Part shown: positions 6,306 through 39,840 of the stretch, piece by piece
How the letters are laid out: every line of letters begins with the position of its first letter
Position numbering within the stretch: the stretch's first letter is position 1
Assembly (NCBI GenBank): GCA_023381555.1
Contig: JAMCRV010000093.1
Span: forward strand, 1-43,631
Source: Chloroflexota bacterium
Lineage (GTDB): Bacteria > Chloroflexota > UBA4733
Length of the DNA stretch: 43,631 nt
Direction: 5' to 3'
Notes under the pieces: model-generated
What the model was told of the DNA's origin: nothing
What the model saw: only the letters and a program-made list of their open reading frames with translations
Databases searched by the model: none
Program-made: the position numbers and the translations under genes

Positions 6306-7794
6306 AGATCCCCTCTTTGGCCAGCCGGGCGGCTACTCGCTGATCCCGCACTTCACCACAGCCGCGCAATGGAGGAAAGATCTTGTCCGGGTTGAATAGC
6401 TGACGCGGGTTGAAACAGTCTCTCAGCCGGGCCATCACTGCGAGGTCTTCTGTCGTGTACAGGAAGGCTATGTGTTCCCGCTTTTCGAGGCCGATACCGT
6501 GTTCGCCCGACACAACACCACCCTTTTCGACACAGAACCGCAAGATCTCCAAGCCACCACGGAGCGTTCGCTCGATGTTGGTCGGATCCTGGCGATCGAA
6601 GAGAATGTTGGGGTGGAGGTTGCCATCCCCCGCGTGGAAGACGTTTGCGATTGGGAGACGGATGTCGCGGGATACCTGTTCAACGAACTGAAGCGTCTCC
6701 GGAAGCTTGGTCCGTGGTACAACGCCGTCCTGGATGTAGTAGTTCGGTGCAAGGCGTCCGAGCGCCCCGAGCGCTCCCTTTCGCCCGGCCCACAGGGCAG
6801 CACGCTCGGCTGCGCTCCGCGCTCGTCTGACCTCGCCGGCACCGTGATTGCGACAGATGGTTGAGACTTGATCGACGAGCTCTTCGACGGCTTCGCGCAA
6901 GCCATCAAGCTCAACGAGCAGCACGGCGCCCGCATCAGGAGGGTAGCCGGCGTGATACGCAGCCTCGATCGCCTGACAACACAGCCCGTCCATCATCTCC
7001 AGTGCCGCGGGAATGATCCCAGCACCGATGATCGCTGAGACAGTGTTGGATGCCTCATCGACTGATCTAAAGATTGCGAGGAGCACTTGTGTATCTTCTG
7101 GCAGCGGCGTGAGCCGTACCGTGACCTCGGTAGCGATCCCGAACGTGCCCTCCGATCCCACAACCGTGCCTGTCAAGTCCAATCCGTGCTGATCGCCATC
7201 AGCTCCAGACGTATGGATGACATCTCCCGTAGGAAGGACTAGCTCGAGGTCGAGGATGTGATTAGTCGTTGCACCGTAGGAAAGGCAGTGAGGCCCCCCC
7301 GAGTTCTCAGCGACGTTGCCGCCAATGGTACACACCTTCTGACTTGAGGGATCGGGAGCGTAGAAGAAGCCCGCATGTTCCGTGTAATGAGTGAGATCAG
7401 CATTGATCACCCCGGGCTGGACGGTCGCCCGCCGATTCGCATAGTCGATTGACAAGATGTGGTTCATTCTGGTGGTGACGATGACAATGCCGCCTTTAAT
7501 TGCTATTGCGCCACCAGAGAGGCCGGTGCCTGATCCACGCGGCACTACTGGCAGGTCAAAACGGTTGGCGAGCTTGACGATCTCCACAACTTGCTGCGTC
7601 GTCTGAGGCAACACTACAGCAGCCGGGAGGTGACGGTCGAGCGAGGCGTCGTACTCATACACGAGCAACTCTGCAGGATGGCTCACGACACTGTCTGCAC
7701 CAACGATATTCTGGAGTTGAGAGATGAGATCATTGTGCACGGATTTGCTTTCCTCCAGGACCATTGTACTGAGCAGGCCGCGAACTTGCAGCAT
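6295..7794 (-). CDS. glcD: FAD-linked oxidase, glycolate oxidase subunit GlcD
   Basis: 499 aa; VVPRGSGTGLSGGAIAIKGGIVI, GNVAENSGGPHCLSYGATTNHIL, NVFHAGDGNLHPNILFD, GGVVSGEHGIGLEK. Confidence 0.93.
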   Translation of the reverse strand: MLQVRGLLSTMVLEESKSVHNDLISQLQNIVGADSVVSHPAELLVYEYDASLDRHLPAAVVLPQTTQQVVEIVKLANRFDLPVVPRGSGTGLSGGAIAIKGGIVIVTTRMNHILSIDYANRRATVQPGVINADLTHYTEHAGFFYAPDPSSQKVCTIGGNVAENSGGPHCLSYGATTNHILDLELVLPTGDVIHTSGADGDQHGLDLTGTVVGSEGTFGIATEVTVRLTPLPEDTQVLLAIFRSVDEASNTVSAIIGAGIIPAALEMMDGLCCQAIEAAYHAGYPPDAGAVLLVELDGLREAVEELVDQVSTICRNHGAGEVRRARSAAERAALWAGRKGALGALGRLAPNYYIQDGVVPRTKLPETLQFVEQVSRDIRLPIANVFHAGDGNLHPNILFDRQDPTNIERTLRGGLEILRFCVEKGGVVSGEHGIGLEKREHIAFLYTTEDLAVMARLRDCFNPRQLFNPDKIFPPLRGCGEVRDQRVAARLAKEGIYAV

Positions 7795-31533: not shown

Positions 31534-33731
31534 CGGCGGAAGCCAGAGACAGCCAGCCGTTCGCACAGCGATACGCTGCCGCTCTTCGCGATCGGCGCCA
31601 GCAAGGGAACCTGTTGCAGTTCCAACGCGCCTGGGCGCGGGACAGAGACGCGGCTTTCGCAGATCAGGATTTCTCGGTCCTGCGCGAGCGGCTCAAAGCT
31701 GCGAAGAATGCGGTACTGCGCGATCTGGATCAGTGGCTCGACCGCTACCAGGTCGCAGCAGAGGCCAATGGTGCCATAGTACACCGGGTTCGCGATGCCC
31801 GTGAGGCCTGTGAGCGCGTGCTCGCAATTTGTGCTCAGGAACACGTCTCAACGCTCGTCAAGAGCAAGAGCATGGTGAGTGAGGAAGTAGAGCTGAACGC
31901 GTTCCTCGGCGAGCACGACGTGACGGCCGTTGAGAGCGACCTTGGTGAGTGGCTGGTGCAACTTGCCGGTGAACGGCCGTCACACATGGTCCTCCCCTTC
32001 ATTCACAAGGATCGAAGACAGGCGGCGGCGCTCGTGCGCACTGCGACCGGAGGCAGCTTCGAGGGAGATGACGTCCCTGCAGTTGTTCATAGAGCCCGCG
32101 ATGCGATCCGGGAGCACTTCTGGACCGCAGGTGCCGGACTCACCGGCGCCAATGCTTTGGTAGCCGAAGATGGATCGGTCGTCCTCGTGACCAATGAGGG
32201 CAATGCCGATCTCACGGTGACAGTACCCCCTGTTCACATCGTTTTGGCGGGCATCGAGAAGATCATCCCGAGCCTCATGGATGCTGCGACGCAGCTGAGG
32301 CTGCTCGCTCGCAGTGCCACGGCGCAGCGGATTACAGTCTACACTACCTTCATTCGCAAGCCTGCACCAGAGCACCAACTGCACATCGTCCTCGTCGATA
32401 ATGGCAGAAGGACCATGGCGGCGGATTCGCGTTACCGTGACGCTCTCCGGTGCATCCGCTGTGGTGCGTGCGCCGATGCCTGTCCTCCGTATCAAGTCGT
32501 TGGTGGCCATGTATTTGGCCACATCTACTCTGGAGCGATCGGACTCGTCGTTACTCCTGCACATCACGGCCTTGCAGCTGATGCTGGGCCGCAGTCACTG
32601 TGCATCAGCTGCAACGCCTGCCAGACGGTCTGCCCCGTAGACATTCCCCTCCCCCAACAGATCCTTGACCGGCGGGCTGAGGTCGCTGCTGCTCAAGGGG
32701 CACCTGTGTCTTTGCGCGCCATGATCGAGCTGTGGAAGCATCCTGCAGTTCTTGATCGTGCGATACGCTCGGCCGGGCGAATTGCGGGTGTGGTCAGTAG
32801 GGGTGGGCAGTGGATTGACGTGCCGTCTTCACTGACGAGCATCCCCTTTCTCGCGCAACAAGCGAGCTGGAGAAGCCTACCCACTCCTGCCTCCCGACCA
32901 TTCCGGGACCGTCCTGAAGCTCGGACGGTCCCGGCTTCGAAGCCACAAGTCAAGTCCGTACTGGCCGGGAAGCGGATCGCCTTCTTTGCTCAGTGCTTGA
33001 CGGATCGCTTTTGGCCTGAGCAAGCAGTAGCTGTAGCTTCGACGCTGCGACTCTTCGGTGCGGAAGTGGTGTTTCCGCGCCATCAGCACTGCTGTGGCCT
33101 TCCAGCACTCGATGCGGGAGACAAGGCCGCAGCACGGCAGATGCTGCAGCAGACTATTGAGGTGCTCGAGTCCACTGGTGCCGACTTCATCGTGAGTGGT
33201 GCAGGCAGTTGTGTGGCGATGCTGACCTACGATGCTACCCACGTGCTCGAGAGCGACCCGGCTTGGCAGCGGAGGGCTGAGCGTCTAGCCAGGCGAATGG
33301 TGAGCTTCACGCACTTGCTTGCGTATGACGCAGAGCTCGTGCCTGGTTGCTGGGATGATGGTCAACGGCAGCCTGTTGTTGTGCATGACTTCTGTCAGGC
33401 TCGATACGTCTTGAAAGATGCCGAGGCGCCACGCCGGCTGCTCACCGGTTACCTTGGCTGCGAGATCTTGGAGCTGTCCGAAATAATGTGCTGTGGCTTC
33501 GGTGGCTCGCGGTCGGGCTTGTATCCTGACCTGGCGAAGGCAATCGGTGCACGCAAGCTCGAGAGTATCCGGCAGACCGGCGGCACGACCGTAGTGACTG
33601 ACAACCCTGGGTGTATTGCGCATCTCCGGTCGATGATCCGGAAGCAGGGTGGGTCGGAGCGCGTACTCCACATCGCTGAGTTCGTGTGGGCACGTATCAG
33701 CTCTCTTCCCTCGTCTACACCAAGGGCTTAG
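31530..33731 (+). CDS. Fused lactate utilization iron-sulfur protein: LutB (LUD + ferredoxin) followed by LutA (two CCG domains)
   Basis: 733 aa; LUD domain (FWTAGAGLTGANALVAEDGSVVLVTNEGN), 4Fe-4S (CIRCGACADACPPY, CISCNACQTVCPVDIPL), CCG domains (HQHCCGLPALDAGD; SEIMCCGFGGSRSGLYPDLA). The last two codons and stop lie in the inserted element. Confidence 0.9.
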   Translation: MTAEARDSQPFAQRYAAALRDRRQQGNLLQFQRAWARDRDAAFADQDFSVLRERLKAAKNAVLRDLDQWLDRYQVAAEANGAIVHRVRDAREACERVLAICAQEHVSTLVKSKSMVSEEVELNAFLGEHDVTAVESDLGEWLVQLAGERPSHMVLPFIHKDRRQAAALVRTATGGSFEGDDVPAVVHRARDAIREHFWTAGAGLTGANALVAEDGSVVLVTNEGNADLTVTVPPVHIVLAGIEKIIPSLMDAATQLRLLARSATAQRITVYTTFIRKPAPEHQLHIVLVDNGRRTMAADSRYRDALRCIRCGACADACPPYQVVGGHVFGHIYSGAIGLVVTPAHHGLAADAGPQSLCISCNACQTVCPVDIPLPQQILDRRAEVAAAQGAPVSLRAMIELWKHPAVLDRAIRSAGRIAGVVSRGGQWIDVPSSLTSIPFLAQQASWRSLPTPASRPFRDRPEARTVPASKPQVKSVLAGKRIAFFAQCLTDRFWPEQAVAVASTLRLFGAEVVFPRHQHCCGLPALDAGDKAAARQMLQQTIEVLESTGADFIVSGAGSCVAMLTYDATHVLESDPAWQRRAERLARRMVSFTHLLAYDAELVPGCWDDGQRQPVVVHDFCQARYVLKDAEAPRRLLTGYLGCEILELSEIMCCGFGGSRSGLYPDLAKAIGARKLESIRQTGGTTVVTDNPGCIAHLRSMIRKQGGSERVLHIAEFVWARISSLPSSTPRA
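33712..33721. repeat. Left copy of 10-bp direct repeat (putative target-site duplication) CGTCTACACC
   Basis: Identical to 36837-36846; 14 bp identity if the preceding CCCT is included. Confidence 0.8.
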
Positions 33732-33812
33732 CCATCACGACCTCCTCCACGCGGCCGCAGCCGTCCGACCGCCCCCAACTCTACCCGCTCACGCGGGTGA
33801 TGAAATTGCCCT
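33722..33812 (+). repeat. 91-bp miniature ISAs1-like end pair (left end joined to right end)
   Basis: Starts with AAGGGCTTAGCCATCAC and ends with GGTGATGAAATTGCCCT; the latter (17 bp) is identical to the right end at 36820-36836. Confidence 0.6.
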
Positions 33813-33948
33813 GCTGGCGTCCGAGGGCCTGCTCGTCCACGGCGCGAAGCGGCGGCCGTCCCGCCGCGGCCAGGTCACGCTCGCGGCCAGACAGGGCGGC
33901 GAGCACCTCGGCCCGCAGGTTCCCGACGAGCGCGTTGTCCGCGCTCAC
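33813..33948 (-). pseudogene. N-terminal fragment of an unidentified gene (possibly CpaF/TadA-like ATPase), cut at the IS end
   Basis: SADNALVGNLRAEVLAALSGRERDLAAAGRPPLRAVDEQALGRQ followed directly by the IS end (GNFITRVSG* is IS-derived). Confidence 0.35.
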
Positions 33949-34019
33949 CGTGCCCTCCCCAACCGTGGAACGCTCACTGCGATACCTCCTCGCACCTGCA
34001 GACCGCTTCCGGTCGGACG

Positions 34020-34122
34020 CGCCGTCGGGAGACTCGGGCAGGACCCCGAGGTCGACTGCCGCCTGATGGGTCATGCGGGCCAGCTGTCCTGCACCAATCA
34101 TCGCCACCTTGGCAGACGCTGT
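34020..34122 (-). pseudogene. PurK (5-(carboxyamino)imidazole ribonucleotide synthase) N-terminal fragment
   Basis: SAKVAMIGAGQLARMTHQAAVDLGVLPESPDG matches the conserved PurK N-terminus GGGQLARM...A..LG, then homology stops. Confidence 0.65.
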
Positions 34123-34217
34123 CCGACGGAAGCTCGCTCGAGATCTCGCCCGTGAGACCAGGTCGCTCTGGCTGTCCGGTACAGAATGCGGGACATGTCC
34201 CGGATCGCGGAGCATGG

Positions 34218-35711
34218 TCATTGCCCCTGACCGAGGGAAAATCCGGCCTTGCCGTCGAAGGTGAACAGTCCTTCGGTCTTGATGAAGGGGAGCCCGGCGG
34301 CAGCCAGACGGCTCAGCAGATCAATGACCTGTTCGTATGGCACGGGGCGGTCGGGTGAGTGACCCTGGAAGCGGCAGCGCCAGTGATCCACGCAGAAGGT
34401 TTCGGGAATACCACCCGGGTACACCTTCTGGCCCCTGTTAGTGATCATCACGAGCCTCAGATCCGGCCCAGCATTCGCTTCGAGAGCCTTGGCCAGCTCT
34501 TCGACCGACGCCTGCGAGTCGATAAACACGTCGATCCCAACCAATTCCTTTCGAGCACGTGAACGCTCCGAGACATGGACGGCAATCCTCTCTGAGTTGG
34601 ACGGATATCTGGCGGCCTTGAGCGTCTTCGGCATCTCTCCCAAGCGGGCGATGACCGCGTCTGCAAACTCGGCAGTGCCGACCCTTGCTCTGGAGACTGC
34701 CGGATCGTAGATGTCGTAGGTGTGCATGCCGTCCTCGATCGTGCGAAGCCAGGCGTTGTGGACCCGCGCAGCCGCCTCGGCTTGGCCGATATGGACGAGC
34801 ATCTGAACCGCCCCGAGTAGCAGGCCGGAGGGGTTGGCTACGTTCTGACCGGCTCGCCGAGGTGCAGAACCGTGGATCGCCTCGAACATGGCGATCTCGC
34901 CACCGATGTTCGCACTGCCGGCAAGCCCGACTGAGCCTGCGATCTGCGCTGCTACGTCGGAGAGGATGTCCCCGTAGAGGTTCGGCAGGACGATGACGTC
35001 GAAGGCCTCAGGGGTGTCGGCAAGCTTGGCAGCACCGATGTCTACGATCCAATGCTCGGACTCGAGGTCCGGGTACTCGGAAGCCACCTCGTCGAAGACC
35101 CGGTGGAATAGGCCGTCGGTCATCTTCATGATGTTGTCCTTGGTAAAGCAGGTCACCTTGGACCGTCCATAGCGGCGCGCGTACTCAAAGGCATACCTGA
35201 CGACCCGCTCGGTCCCCGGGCGGGTGATGAGCTTGAGGCACTGGGTGACGTCTTCGGTTTGGCGGTGCTCGATCCCGCCGTAGAGGTCCTCCTCGTTCTC
35301 GCGGATGATCACTACGTCCATGTCGGGATGCTTGGTCGCGACGAATGGGGAGTACGACGGGCAGGGCCTCACGTTGGCGAAGAGACCGAACGCCTTACGG
35401 ATAGTCACGTTCAGGCTCTTGAACCCTCCACCCTGGGGGGTCGTGATGGGAGCTTTCAGGAACACTTTGGTGCGCCGCAAGGACTCCCAGGCTTCCGGGT
35501 CGATGCCTGCGGTGTTCCCCTGCGCGTAGACCGCCTCGCCGATACGGATTGTCTCCAGATCGAGATCAGCGCCTCCGGCTGTGATGATCCGAAGGGTGGC
35601 CTCCATGATCTCCGGGCCGATGCCGTCGCCGTATGCGACGGTGATCGGAACCGGCTCAATGGCATCAATGCTCATCTTCTGCTCCTTGGTCATAGTCGGG
35701 TGTGCACTCAA
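34218..35711 (-). CDS. icd: NADP-dependent isocitrate dehydrogenase, long form with C-terminal extension (Thermus-like type)
   Basis: ITVAYGDGIGPEIMEATLRI, FLKAPITTPQGGGFKSLNVTIRKAFGLFANVRPCPSY, VVIIRENEEDLYGGIEHRQT, DVIVLPNLYGDILSD, EAIHGSAPRRAGQNVANPSGLL, plus a ~130-aa C-terminal extension. Start may be internal (35693 or 35675). Confidence 0.93.
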   Translation of the reverse strand: MSAHPTMTKEQKMSIDAIEPVPITVAYGDGIGPEIMEATLRIITAGGADLDLETIRIGEAVYAQGNTAGIDPEAWESLRRTKVFLKAPITTPQGGGFKSLNVTIRKAFGLFANVRPCPSYSPFVATKHPDMDVVIIRENEEDLYGGIEHRQTEDVTQCLKLITRPGTERVVRYAFEYARRYGRSKVTCFTKDNIMKMTDGLFHRVFDEVASEYPDLESEHWIVDIGAAKLADTPEAFDVIVLPNLYGDILSDVAAQIAGSVGLAGSANIGGEIAMFEAIHGSAPRRAGQNVANPSGLLLGAVQMLVHIGQAEAAARVHNAWLRTIEDGMHTYDIYDPAVSRARVGTAEFADAVIARLGEMPKTLKAARYPSNSERIAVHVSERSRARKELVGIDVFIDSQASVEELAKALEANAGPDLRLVMITNRGQKVYPGGIPETFCVDHWRCRFQGHSPDRPVPYEQVIDLLSRLAAAGLPFIKTEGLFTFDGKAGFSLGQGQ

Positions 35712-36166
35712 TGGCGGTCATCACGAAGCAGGCAGAGGGGAAAAGCTGGGATGCCCTCGAACTCTTCCAACTGGGCCAGCCGTGACCATCGCAGTGAAGC
35801 AGGTAAGCGGGTCAGGAGCTCCCAGATCGCTTCGTCGGTCATGTGGACGTCGTCGCGGCGGGCAGCGAAGCGCAACTGCAGCGCGTCGTCTTCTCTAGCG
35901 CGAAACGCTGTTTCGTCTAGCCCCTCTTCCAGGGCGGCTACTAGGCGCAGGTGGGTGGCGCTTGCCGCAGAGCGGGCCATTGCCAGCGCCTGGCCCTCGC
36001 CGCGTGGTCGTTCCATCCACAGGTCGATCCCCACTACTCGCCGCCGCCGACATGCTGCCCGCGTCGAGGCGCTCAGTTGGGTGCTGGGTCCGTCGAGGTT
36101 GTCCATCGTGCGCTCCATCACATACGAACTGTAACTCAGCATATCGGGTTCGCAGACGGCGAGCAA
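35708..36166 (-). CDS. Small protein resembling the C-terminal extension of the adjacent isocitrate dehydrogenase
   Basis: VVGIDLWMERP...THLRLVAALEEG...LQLRFAARRDDVHMTDEAIWELLTRLPASLRWSRLAQLEEFEGIPAF aligns collinearly with icd LVGIDVFIDSQ...PDLRLVMITNRG...WRCRFQGHSPDRPVPYEQVIDLLSRLAAAGLPFIKTEGLFTFDGKAGF. Probable start near 36106. Confidence 0.6.
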   Translation of the reverse strand: MLAVCEPDMLSYSSYVMERTMDNLDGPSTQLSASTRAACRRRRVVGIDLWMERPRGEGQALAMARSAASATHLRLVAALEEGLDETAFRAREDDALQLRFAARRDDVHMTDEAIWELLTRLPASLRWSRLAQLEEFEGIPAFPLCLLRDDRH

Positions 36167-36171
36167 GAATC

Positions 36172-36819
36172 GGGACTGCCGGTCAAGGACAATCAGCCCG
36201 CGCTGGAAGCCGGCATTGCCGGCGCTTTTTCCCCGCTGCTCGCGCTCACGCCTGATCCGACGGTGCCGCCGGTCCTGCCGATCTAGCGTAGCGCGCGTGG
36301 CAAGAGCGCGGCGCCACGCTTACCATCGCCGTGGATGCCCCGGCCAAGGCCCAGCACGGGCGCTTGGAACGGCGCATCCTCTGGGCGCTCGCTGATCCGG
36401 CCCAGAACGTCCGCGTGGGCGACATCGGTAGCCTCGGGGAGCCATGGTCGCACGTTCAGCAACTCTGCTTGATCGAGCGGCGGCGCATCCGCCAGACCAC
36501 CGGCGAGGTGGAGACGGAGGTCACCTACGCCGTCACCAGCCTCCCCAGCGACCGCGCGGACGCCACGGACTTGCTCGCCTTCGCGCGGAGCCATTGGGGC
36601 ATCGAGAAGAAGGTCCATGACGTCCGCGACGTCACCTTTGACGAGGATCGCTGCCACATCCGCGCCGGCGCCGCGCCCCAGGTCTTCGCCGCCTGCCGCA
36701 ATCTCGCTGTCGCCTTGCTCCGCCGCTGTCACCGTGGCAATATCGCCGCCGCCCTGCGCACGAACGTCAGCCGCCCCCACCGCGCCGTCCACCTCGTCTT
36801 CGCCCGCGGCCAACCCTGA
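36172..36819 (+). pseudogene. ISAs1 family transposase, 5'-truncated and frameshifted
   Basis: SGLPVKDNQPALEAGIAGAF in one frame (within ORF 35951-36286), then GRLERRILWALADPAQNVRVGD...IERRRIRQTTGEVETEVTYAVTSLPSDRADATDLLAFARSHWGIEKKVHDVRDVTFDEDRCHIRAGAAPQVFAACRNLAVALLRRCHRGNIAAAL in another. Confidence 0.85.
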
Positions 36820-36836
36820 GGTGATGAAATTGCCCT

Positions 36837-36846
36837 CGTCTACACC
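36837..36846. repeat. Right copy of 10-bp direct repeat CGTCTACACC
   Basis: Identical to 33712-33721. Confidence 0.8.
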
Positions 36847-36855
36847 TGACTAAGC

Positions 36856-36885
36856 TTGACGTGTAGACGGTGACACAGGTAGGAT
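36856..36885 (+). promoter_or_regulatory. Probable sigma-70 promoter of tRNA-Glu
   Basis: TTGACG-N18-TAGGAT ending 13 nt before the mature tRNA 5' end. Confidence 0.6.
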
Positions 36886-36898
36886 GCCAGAGCGTCGG

Positions 36899-36972
36899 GC
36901 CCCCATCGTCTAGCGGCCTAGGACATCACCCTTTCAAGGTGGAGATCGCGGGTTCGAATCCCGCTGGGGGTA
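36899..36972 (+). tRNA. tRNA-Glu (anticodon TTC)
   Basis: GCCCCCA acceptor pairs with TGGGGGT; anticodon arm TCACC-CTTTCAA-GGTGG; T-arm GCGGGTTCGAATCCCGC; discriminator A; CCA not encoded. Confidence 0.93.
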
Positions 36973-37181
36973 CTGCCACGCCGGTCAAGTGGTTGCCCTC
37001 TTCTGGAGGCACAGAGGTCCAGTCCCGCCTTCTGAGGGGGGCGGATCACTTGGTTGGCGCTCTAGAAACAGGAAACAGACGGTACCGGAGAGCACGCCTG
37101 AAGACCTGGCGCAGATTCGCGGTAACGAAGATGCTCGCCAGTCTGAGACGAACGGGCTAGTCCAGCGCTAGGCTCGTGAGT

Positions 37182-37463
37182 TTAGTAGTGGAAGCGTGCC
37201 TGTAAGAACTGGATCCGGTCCGCCTGGACCAGGTAGACCAGGCGGTGCTCCTGAGTCAGGCGGCGCGACCAGATATCCGGACCAAGGTGTTTCAGTGGCT
37301 CCGGCTTCCCGATGCCGCCAAAAGGGTCGCGCAGGATGGCTTCTATGAGCGTCAGCACGCGCAGAGCAACAGTGCGATTGGTCTCCACCCAGTAGGTGAG
37401 ATCCTCACGGAAGTCTGGTTGGAGCACGGCGTCCCGCTGCCGCAGTGAGGCCTTAGTCTCCAC
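37182..37463 (-). CDS. yoeB: Txe/YoeB family mRNA interferase toxin
   Basis: 93 aa; GKPEPLKHLGPDIWSRRLTQEHRLVYLV and terminal ARFHY match the YoeB core, including catalytic Glu, Arg and the C-terminal His-Tyr. Confidence 0.92.
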   Translation of the reverse strand: METKASLRQRDAVLQPDFREDLTYWVETNRTVALRVLTLIEAILRDPFGGIGKPEPLKHLGPDIWSRRLTQEHRLVYLVQADRIQFLQARFHY

Positions 37464-37734
37464 TCAGACCTAACTCTTCGCGGAGTTTCTCGACGGTGAT
37501 GACTTCCCCGGCACCCTGGCGCGCCTGCTCAATAGAGCGCAGCAGCCGCTCGGCATTCCGTGGCGAGCTGAGGAGATGGGCCGTCTCTTGGAGAGACGAC
37601 CATTCCTCTTCTGCCACCAGCACGACGGGTTGCTTACCACGCCGCTCGATCACCACGACCTCACGATCATTGACCGCCCGGTCAAGCAGTGCTGCGAGGT
37701 GTTCCCGCGCTTCGGTATAGCTCGTGCGCACCAT
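37453..37734 (-). CDS. yefM: Phd/YefM family antitoxin
   Basis: MVRTSYTEAREHLAALLDRAVNDREVVVIERRGKQPVVLVAEEEWSSLQETAHLLSSPRNAERLLRSIEQA; ATG at 37734-37732; overlaps the toxin start. Confidence 0.92.
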   Translation of the reverse strand: MVRTSYTEAREHLAALLDRAVNDREVVVIERRGKQPVVLVAEEEWSSLQETAHLLSSPRNAERLLRSIEQARQGAGEVITVEKLREELGLSGD

Positions 37735-37751
37735 GGTAGTTCTCCCTTTCC

Positions 37752-37769
37752 GTACAGATATACTGTACA
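37752..37769. promoter_or_regulatory. Candidate YefM operator palindrome
   Basis: GTACAG-ATATA-CTGTAC(A) inverted repeat immediately upstream of yefM, containing a TGTACA core. Confidence 0.6.
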
Positions 37770-37944
37770 GAACTGGGAGTAACAACGCAAGTAGGAAAAA
37801 GGAGAGATCATGCGCACCACGCCGGCAACGTTGTCCCTGGCCGCCCGCATCCACCACCCACGCAGCCAGGATCGCTGCACAGTTTGAGAGGAATCAGCGC
37901 TGGCACACCCCAGTCGCCTCGCAGTGTTGTGCGTCAGTAGATTG

Positions 37945-39051
37945 CTACACGTGACCGGTGGCGTGGAGGACCCGCTGGTACGCTTCGAAAGTGGTAGCAG
38001 CGCACTGTTTCCATGTGAAAGTCGCCGAGCGCTGTGCCCCTGCTTCCGCAAGCTCCGCTCGCTGCGCCGGATTCGTGGCGAGCTGGACGATGGCTTCGGC
38101 GAAGCCGGCCGGTGATTCATTGCCAACGAGCAGACCAGCGCCTCCAACCAGCTCGACAAGCGCTGTGCCGCTTGTCGCGATGACAGGCGTTCGCGACACC
38201 ATGGCATCGAGCGTTGGTAGTGAGAAGCCTTCGTAGGCAGAGGTCGTGACGTAGAGATCAGCGGCCGCGTAGAACGCGGGAAGGAGATCGCCTGACACGC
38301 CGTCGAAAAAGCGCACCGGCAGGTTGGGATGCTGCTGAAGGGCAGTGAGCGAGAGCCGGCGCCAGCGTTCGCTGCCAGCTCGCCCGACACGCCAGAGTCG
38401 GAGCTTCACACCGAGTCGCTGTGCATCAGCCAGGGCGTCCAAGAGGAGTGGAATGCGCTTGCGTGGCAGCTCGCTCCCCACGTTGAGCAACGTGATGGCC
38501 TCGCTCTCCGCTTCGCTGCCGATGACTGGCGCCAGGCGTGCTACGGCTTCAGCCTTGCCCCACACTCTGGAGACAGTTGGGCCTTCCGGCGTCACCTGAA
38601 CTTGCTTGTCTGTCCAGCCCAACCGGCGCACGAGCGTATCCTTCGTGAACTGACTAGGCGTCAAGATGAGCTGGCTTTGCCGGCGCATGAGCAGCAATGC
38701 CATACGGAACAGAGTGCGGTCCAGGAGGGTCGAATGAGCCCGATCGTACCGGCAATAGAGAGCTCCAAGGTCGTGCACCGTGGTCACGATGGGTAGAGCT
38801 TGCCAGGTGCGCCCGGAGCGTGGCAGCGCTCTGTGCAAGTGCGACGAGAGCACGTGTGCGAGCTCTCCACCAGGAGCCGGTGCGAGCACGGGCAGCAGTG
38901 CCGAGAGGTCACGTCCCAGCACCTTCTTCCCTTGCCGGGAACCGATTCGCTCCGGTGTCACGCGGGAGCCGAGTGCTCGCAGGAGCTGCTGTTCATACTG
39001 CCCGGTTCCGCTGTGGGGATTGAGTGGCAGTCCGACGTAGGTCACGCGCAC
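37945..39051 (-). CDS. GT4-type family 1 glycosyltransferase
   Basis: 368 aa; VTYVGLPLNPHSGTGQYEQQLLRAL, LLNVGSELPRKRIPLLLDALA, ADLYVTTSAYEGFSLPTLDAMVSRTPVIATSGTALVELVGGAGLLV. Confidence 0.9.
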   Translation of the reverse strand: MRVTYVGLPLNPHSGTGQYEQQLLRALGSRVTPERIGSRQGKKVLGRDLSALLPVLAPAPGGELAHVLSSHLHRALPRSGRTWQALPIVTTVHDLGALYCRYDRAHSTLLDRTLFRMALLLMRRQSQLILTPSQFTKDTLVRRLGWTDKQVQVTPEGPTVSRVWGKAEAVARLAPVIGSEAESEAITLLNVGSELPRKRIPLLLDALADAQRLGVKLRLWRVGRAGSERWRRLSLTALQQHPNLPVRFFDGVSGDLLPAFYAAADLYVTTSAYEGFSLPTLDAMVSRTPVIATSGTALVELVGGAGLLVGNESPAGFAEAIVQLATNPAQRAELAEAGAQRSATFTWKQCAATTFEAYQRVLHATGHV

Positions 39052-39174
39052 ATTGGAACTCCCCGGTGACCACTCCAGCCAAGCCTGCAGGGCGCTAGGC
39101 GCAAGGTGGGCTGGCTCGTCCTCTGACAGTGTAGCCGGAGTCTGGGAGACTGGTCTCGATAGTGTGGCACGGTG

Positions 39175-39840
39175 TCAGGGCCGGCGATTGCTGACCACAA
39201 TGGAGATGAAGCTGCGAGCGTTTTGAGTGATGGCTTCCCACTGCCCAGAGTTCACCAGCTCGGGCTTGACCAGGTTGCTGCCAACGGCTAGAGCGACGGC
39301 TCCGGCAGCTAGGAACTCCGCGGCGTTTTCGAGAGAGACTCCACCAGTGGGAACGATGCGGACCTGTGGAAGGGGAGCAAGAACCTCGCGGAGATAGCGA
39401 GGGCCACCCACGCTCGCCGGAAAGAGCTTGACCCAGTTCGCTCCAGCTTCCCATGCGGTGAGAATCTCAGTGGGTGAGAAGGCCCCACAGATGATTGCAA
39501 TCCCATAGCGACGGCAGAGCTCGATGGTAGAAAGGCGGAGAGTTGGCGTGACGACGAACTGTGCTCCGGCAGTGATCGCCGCGCGTGCACTCTCTGGATC
39601 GAGAACGGTGCCCGCGCCAATCAGCAGGCGATCGCCGTGGCTTGCAACAAGATTACCGATGACATCGATGGCATGGCGATTGGTCAGGGTGAATTCGACG
39701 CAGCGCACTCCACCTAACAGCAGGGCATCGGCCAGTTGCTGTGCGGAGCTCAAATCATCGAGGCGGACAACCGCAGTGATCCCCGTGTCTTCGATCCATG
39801 TGACGCTCGGTCGGTCCGCTTCGGAGAATTTATCTGCCAT
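39175..39840 (-). CDS. eda: 2-dehydro-3-deoxy-phosphogluconate (KDPG) aldolase family
   Basis: 221 aa; VRCVEFTLTNRHAIDVI, LIGAGTVLDPESARAAITAGAQFVVTP, WVKLFPASVGGPRYLREVLAPLPQVRIVPTGGV. Confidence 0.9.
   Translation of the reverse strand: MADKFSEADRPSVTWIEDTGITAVVRLDDLSSAQQLADALLLGGVRCVEFTLTNRHAIDVIGNLVASHGDRLLIGAGTVLDPESARAAITAGAQFVVTPTLRLSTIELCRRYGIAIICGAFSPTEILTAWEAGANWVKLFPASVGGPRYLREVLAPLPQVRIVPTGGVSLENAAEFLAAGAVALAVGSNLVKPELVNSGQWEAITQNARSFISIVVSNRRP

Follow-up and report, generated by a model that had tools for sequence, protein, structure and literature searches.

In composite transposons flanked by insertion sequences (ISs), cargo lies between IS-type ends and the whole is bounded by a target-site duplication, which in the ISAs1 family measures about 8–10 bp. 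One-ended mobilisation of the ISEcp1 type makes use of surrogate ends and leaves captured DNA between one true IS end and one imperfect end. ISPmar4, an ISAs1-family member, reportedly forms part of a mosaic element in Paracoccus marcusii, together with an IS1247a-driven module according to the title of a 2009 paper by Szuplewska and Bartosik. TIME-COMP elements are non-autonomous mosaics in which miniature elements flank foreign genes, and they are mobile with target duplication (PMC4133298). Here we describe a segment of approximately 3.1 kb in a 43,631-nucleotide stretch (the window) of a Chloroflexota metagenome-assembled genome (MAG; GCA_023381555.1, contig JAMCRV010000093.1, positions 1 to 43,631), in which ISAs1-type ends enclose icd, a gene for a Thermus-type isocitrate dehydrogenase (IDH). 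It is likely that this mosaic element moved as a unit via its ISAs1-type ends into the Chloroflexota host, where 10–11 bp were duplicated.

The window element resembles IS-flanked composite transposons in having IS-type ends around cargo and a target duplication, but it has a 90-bp miniature on the left, half an IS on the right and no active transposase, and its cargo, unlike the usual one, is a central-metabolism gene with gene fragments. It shares a true and an imperfect end with ISEcp1-type mobilisation, although the IS family differs and the imperfect end lies in IS-derived rather than host DNA. As far as its title tells, the ISPmar4 mosaic likewise has an ISAs1-family IS as a component, its other component being the IS1247a-driven module. 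IS- and miniature-bounded mosaic elements are already known; what is unusual here is the central-metabolism cargo and the unusually complete evidence. A small search of the open literature found no description of an isocitrate dehydrogenase as cargo of an IS- or miniature-bounded element, and we agree with the initial annotation that a tricarboxylic acid (TCA)-cycle enzyme is an unusual payload for an IS-based element. TIME-COMP elements derive from the Tn3 family, make 5-bp duplications and are of proven mobility, whereas the window element has ISAs1-type ends, a 10–11-bp duplication and a mobility that we infer (PMC4133298).

An exact 10-bp direct repeat, CGTCTACACC, stands at 33712–33721 and 36837–36846 and encloses 33722–36836; by a rough estimate, two named borders would match in this way by chance with a probability of about 1e-5. 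Scanned without mismatches on both strands, the 43.6-kb window holds the motif AGGGC-N5-CATCAC only at 33723 (plus strand), 33812 (minus) and 36836 (minus). Read inward from 36836, the right end is AGGGCAATTTCATCAC, and the outer left end, which starts one base past the exact repeat copy, reads AGGGCTTAGCCATCAC from 33723. A third ISAs1-type end, GGTGATGAAATTGCCCT at 33796–33812, is identical to the right end at 17 of 17 bases. From these letters we prefer to read the duplication as one of 11 bp in which 10 of 11 bases match (CGTCTACACCA and CGTCTACACCT, base 33722 mismatched), and a duplication of 10 bp exact, or 10 of 11, agrees with the ISAs1 family range. The initial annotation had recognised the repeat and the imperfect inverted termini; both stand, with the motif at 33723 and 36836, but the third end had been overlooked. 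Its description of a composite ISAs1-bounded element holds in that ISAs1-type ends bound a foreign segment, but it does not extend to a pair of full ISAs1 copies; on the left stands a 90-bp miniature, and the copy on the right is without its 5' half.

The duplication surrounds the whole element, and the matching site is found without it in G001, the one same-genus genome on which the empty-site comparison rests. There, a lutB-like gene (69% amino acid identity) is followed by a spacer of about 30 bp, a promoter-like TTGACG...TAGGAT, tRNA-Glu and then eda, so the empty-site search proposed in the initial annotation found flanks conserved on both sides. In the window, the promoter-like TTGACG-N18-TAGGAT at 36856–36885, upstream of tRNA-Glu, is left intact by the insertion, and joining the flanks without the insert gives a reading frame that ends ...PSSTPD-stop. 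From this gene order and the joined frame, the insertion falls in the few bases between the gene stop and the tRNA promoter, adjoining tRNA-Glu(TTC) as first annotated. As a separate observation, tRNA-Glu and eda, about 190 bp apart in G001, are separated in the window by about 2.1 kb with YoeB/YefM toxin–antitoxin genes and a glycosyltransferase gene (37000–39270).

The IDH is 98% identical to that of L036, a MAG recorded as Bacillota (94.8% at nucleotide level over 34135–36166); the next best matches, 81–89% identical, are mostly from MAGs recorded as Actinomycetes, and the best match in the host's phylum reaches 68% among 60 sampled genomes. In the IDH tree the window and L036 proteins are sisters (support 100/100) within a clade of 12 sequences (100/98), the remaining members of which belong to Acidimicrobiia-type genomes and to L038, a MAG recorded as Chloroflexi. 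In the RpoB tree the donor-type genomes group with Aciditerrimonas (100/100), the genome of L036 stands apart on a long branch, and G001 and the genome of L038 fall with Chloroflexota. In the window genome itself, RpoB is interrupted by contig ends, and that of G001 was used in its stead; the Chloroflexota placement of the host comes from the grouping of G001 with Tepidiforma in this tree and not from a label. Judged from the two phylogenies, the donor group of icd was the Acidimicrobiia. The initial annotation had proposed comparing the IDH with a host core gene, and had regarded capture as untenable if all relatives carried the locus or the IDH tracked the host; the IDH lies in an Acidimicrobiia clade, the RpoB of G001 is chloroflexotal and the site in G001 is empty, so that this test left the proposed transfer standing. 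The composition comparison it suggested gave a GC content at third codon positions (GC3) of 0.775 for icd and about 0.65 for three host genes tested. Elsewhere in the IDH tree, archaeal MAGs (Thermoplasmatota and Nitrososphaerota; L057, L058, L059, L060, L063 and L065) have the same IDH type inside the actinobacterial part (100/97), suggesting interdomain transfer or binning errors, and the IDH of L102, a MAG recorded as Porticoccaceae, groups with that of Tepidiforma in the Chloroflexota (100/99), by transfer, wrong naming or binning.

The predicted enzyme has 497 amino acids from a TTG at 35711, or 485 from the likely ATG start at 35675. It is a full-length TCA-cycle enzyme, as first annotated, with 768.8 bits to NF006673 (cut-off 509), 707.5 bits to TIGR02924 (cut-off 561) and 137.4 bits to the C-terminal domain PF18324 (cut-off 25). 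It aligns along its length with the Thermus thermophilus IDH (PDB 2d1c) and shares its full-length domain layout, including the C-terminal domain; it differs in its apparently mobile gene and in having RR for KY in the cofactor stretch (HGSAPRRAG vs HGSAPKYAG, from alignment only). These basic residues suggest NADP use, and NF006673, the cut-off of which is far exceeded, is an NADP-type equivalog. SLNVTIRK, NVRP, RENEEDLYGG and TKDNIMKMTDG, which we take to be substrate-site motifs of this enzyme family, are all found. The ratio of nonsynonymous to synonymous substitution rates (Ka/Ks) of icd against L036 is 0.096, and purifying selection has therefore acted somewhere on the path between the two, not necessarily in this host; by its sequence, the gene looks intact. 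A native IDH, which the initial annotation had advised looking for, is present: the host genome has a separate icd of another type next to sucCD, truncated where the contig stops and 78% identical to that of the family member G002. The acquired IDH is therefore a second isozyme, and its gene probably supplies an enzyme additional to the native one; its expression is presumed and any benefit putative.

The rest of the cargo is a patchwork. The gene order of the donor group is X-icd-purK, with purK complete at 408 amino acids in L041, and the window keeps X, the complete icd and, of purK, no more than the beginning. Beside them lies a cpaF piece, and in G302 cpaF and icd are on different contigs. 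At least two donor loci therefore contributed to the cargo, which consists of a cpaF piece and an X-icd-purK piece, and this speaks against the one-step capture initially suggested; in L036, moreover, the X-icd unit adjoins a different IS remnant, and we find that suggestion unsupported. The product of gene X scores just short of the cut-off for PF18324 (24.5 bits, cut-off 25). Homologues of X keep their place directly upstream of icd in many Acidimicrobiia-type loci (L036, L038, L041, L042, L045, L046, L050, L051 and L055), and X may act as a partner of the IDH or regulate it. A sigma-70-like promoter for X at the fragment edge (TTGCTC-N17-TATGCT) fell below the scan threshold and is not claimed. 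The two Acidimicrobiia genomes G302 and G306 have many paralogous cpaF-like gene starts (L221-L226, L230, L231), suggesting several tad-type loci per genome.

Table 1 Features of the putative element and its flanks, with positions in the window
Feature	Position	Strand	Basis
lutB/ldhH-like lactate-oxidation gene; insertion alters last codons	31530..33731	+	profile match; G001 comparison
Putative target-site duplication, left copy CGTCTACACC (11 bp CGTCTACACCA with mismatched base 33722)	33712..33721	+	exact repeat; empty site in G001
Outer left ISAs1-type end AGGGCTTAGCCATCAC, 11/16 bases as right end	33723..33738	+	motif scan
Miniature ISAs1-derived element, 90 bp, outward ends on both sides	33723..33812	.	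end motifs; compare L192 miniature
Third (inner) ISAs1-type end, exact 17-bp copy of right end	33796..33812	-	sequence match
CpaF/TadA-type ATPase gene, 5' fragment, acidimicrobial origin	33813..33992	-	89% nucleotide identity to G302 and G306
23-bp piece, identical to gene 1.26 kb upstream of cpaF in G302	33993..34015	-	sequence match
purK-like gene, 5' fragment	34023..34221	-	comparison with donor-type locus L041
icd, Thermus-type isocitrate dehydrogenase with PF18324 C-terminal domain	34218..35711	-	profile and structure-sequence alignment
Gene X, small protein, upstream of icd	35708..36166	-	resembles IDH C-terminal domain PF18324
ISAs1-family element, 3' part with right end; transposase C-terminus 36331-36819	36167..36836	+	profile match, alignment
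Right ISAs1-type end GGTGATGAAATTGCCCT	36820..36836	+	sequence match, motif scan
Putative target-site duplication, right copy CGTCTACACC	36837..36846	+	exact repeat
tRNA-Glu(TTC)	36899..36973	+	tRNA detection; G001 comparison

The IS in the segment is a remnant. The open reading frame at 36331–36819 is the C-terminus of an ISAs1-type DDE transposase (NCBIfam NF033564, 78.7 bits, cut-off 70, C-terminal part only), which bears out the initial call of a transposase remnant at the end of the segment (36836). The match to full-length transposases begins at about 36176 (LPVKDNQPAL), a break in the frame falls between about 36284 and 36331, and the N-terminal half is absent. The left part, 33723–33812, resembles a miniature element with an imperfect outer end. 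Comparable is L192 in the Chloroflexota genome G339, where a 136-bp miniature (about 1878–2013) has perfect AGGGCCATTTCATCACC ends and is bordered on both sides by GGCTCCCACCC, an 11-bp repeat. Full-length relatives with both ends are L133 (1423 bp) and L134 (1361 bp), with end types AGGGCCTTTTCATCAG and AGGGTCTTTTCATCAG, and the right and inner ends of the window fit the end pattern of L133–L135. No full copy of the window's IS was found in 301 Chloroflexota genomes (best 56–60% amino acid identity), in 296 donor-class genomes (matches in 4, best 43%) or among plasmids (best 46%), and an end-motif search of 399 genomes gave no close full copy, with matches mostly chance-like and in coding sequence. 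With its nearest relatives in Chloroflexota, and rare and distant ones in the donor class, the mobilising IS is more likely a recipient-side element. The stretch 33723–33796 resembles a ribosome-binding site with ATG GCT AAG after it; taken as the left end of a minus-orientation IS and aligned in both orientations with the left ends of L133 and L134, it scored no higher than shuffled sequence.

Transposition as a unit is favoured because all three perfect end motifs in 43.6 kb lie in the element, two of them at the repeat borders; because an exact 10-bp repeat is matched by an empty site with conserved flanks in G001; because the IDH tree, the donor-type X, purK and cpaF pieces and the GC3 shift of icd mark the cargo as foreign; and because the L192 miniature has similar ends and an 11-bp border repeat. 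The cpaF piece, the purK piece, the complete icd and gene X would have come from an acidophilic Acidimicrobiia lineage and been joined by earlier deletions and fusions. The element of about 3.1 kb would then have transposed via its outer ends, the imperfect one at 33723 and the true right end at 36836, and landed in the short gap between the lactate-oxidation gene and the tRNA-Glu promoter, duplicating 10–11 bp. With its transposase now broken, it would move further only if an intact transposase acted on its ends. Several points weigh against this reading. The two outer ends agree at only 11 of 16 bases, whereas the two ends of L133, and those of L134, are nearly identical; on the left a single base separates the exact repeat from the end motif; the left end is not assignable because no full copy of the IS was found; and the element is known from one MAG, with no second insertion found at another site.

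The main rival, to which we give a modest chance, is that a single ISAs1 copy inserted first and made the duplication, and that its middle was later swapped for the donor fragment by homologous recombination with IS-flanked cargo or by illegitimate recombination. What is left of the IS amounts to 90 bp on the left and a 3' half, a single plus-strand copy could account for the two outer ends, and the recipient-side affinity of the IS keeps this exchange into a resident copy alive. However, a single IS copy leaves unexplained the third outward end between the left end and the cargo, and the mismatch of the outer ends would be unusual for one copy; these two features favour a composite. It is very unlikely that the IS had no part in the recombination that brought in the segment and that the repeat and end motifs are due to chance or to an older, unrelated insertion: the patchwork with its several joins shows that illegitimate recombination acted on the segment, but two perfect 11-base motifs at the borders of an exact repeat, with an empty site elsewhere, are hardly expected by chance. 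An assembly chimera of two organisms is extremely improbable; the metagenome assembly has 129 contigs and is 67% complete, and IS remnants are typical places for misjoins, but host sequence in G001 order lies on both sides, and a target duplication flanking the insert is not something that a misjoin would create. A native locus lost in G001 is refuted: other Chloroflexota do have Thermus-type IDHs (64–68% identity), but that of the window lies apart from them inside the Acidimicrobiia clade, with donor operon pieces, and the family's own icd is of a different type, beside sucCD.

The X-icd unit of L036 begins within a few bases of the window's upstream border, and gene X is frame-shifted there. 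Its homology to the window stops at 34135, while the donor-type sequence of the window runs on to about 34023; L036 is therefore not the direct donor. Two separate captures from a single donor lineage would explain the shared border, as would the onward passage of one mobile unit. At 7150–7516 in L036, an ISL3-like transposase remnant lies beside X-icd (PF01610 21.3 bits, just below the cut-off of 23); downstream of icd, the L036 sequence had suggested an IS256-like element, a reading dropped for want of Pfam support. Because the window and L036 share the upstream border of X-icd but adjoin different IS remnants, ISAs1-type and ISL3-like, one may speculate, though we doubt it, that X-icd is itself an itinerant cassette of acid-mine communities, in which repeated IS-driven capture spreads a second IDH across phyla. 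Organisms and isolate names point to acid-mine communities as the setting.

Transfer of central-metabolism genes across phyla is usually inferred from trees alone. Here, one locus presents the vehicle, the target duplication, the empty site, the donor group and a redundant native enzyme, which makes the route testable. It indicates that ordinary IS or miniature ends can move a TCA-cycle gene between phyla of a common habitat.

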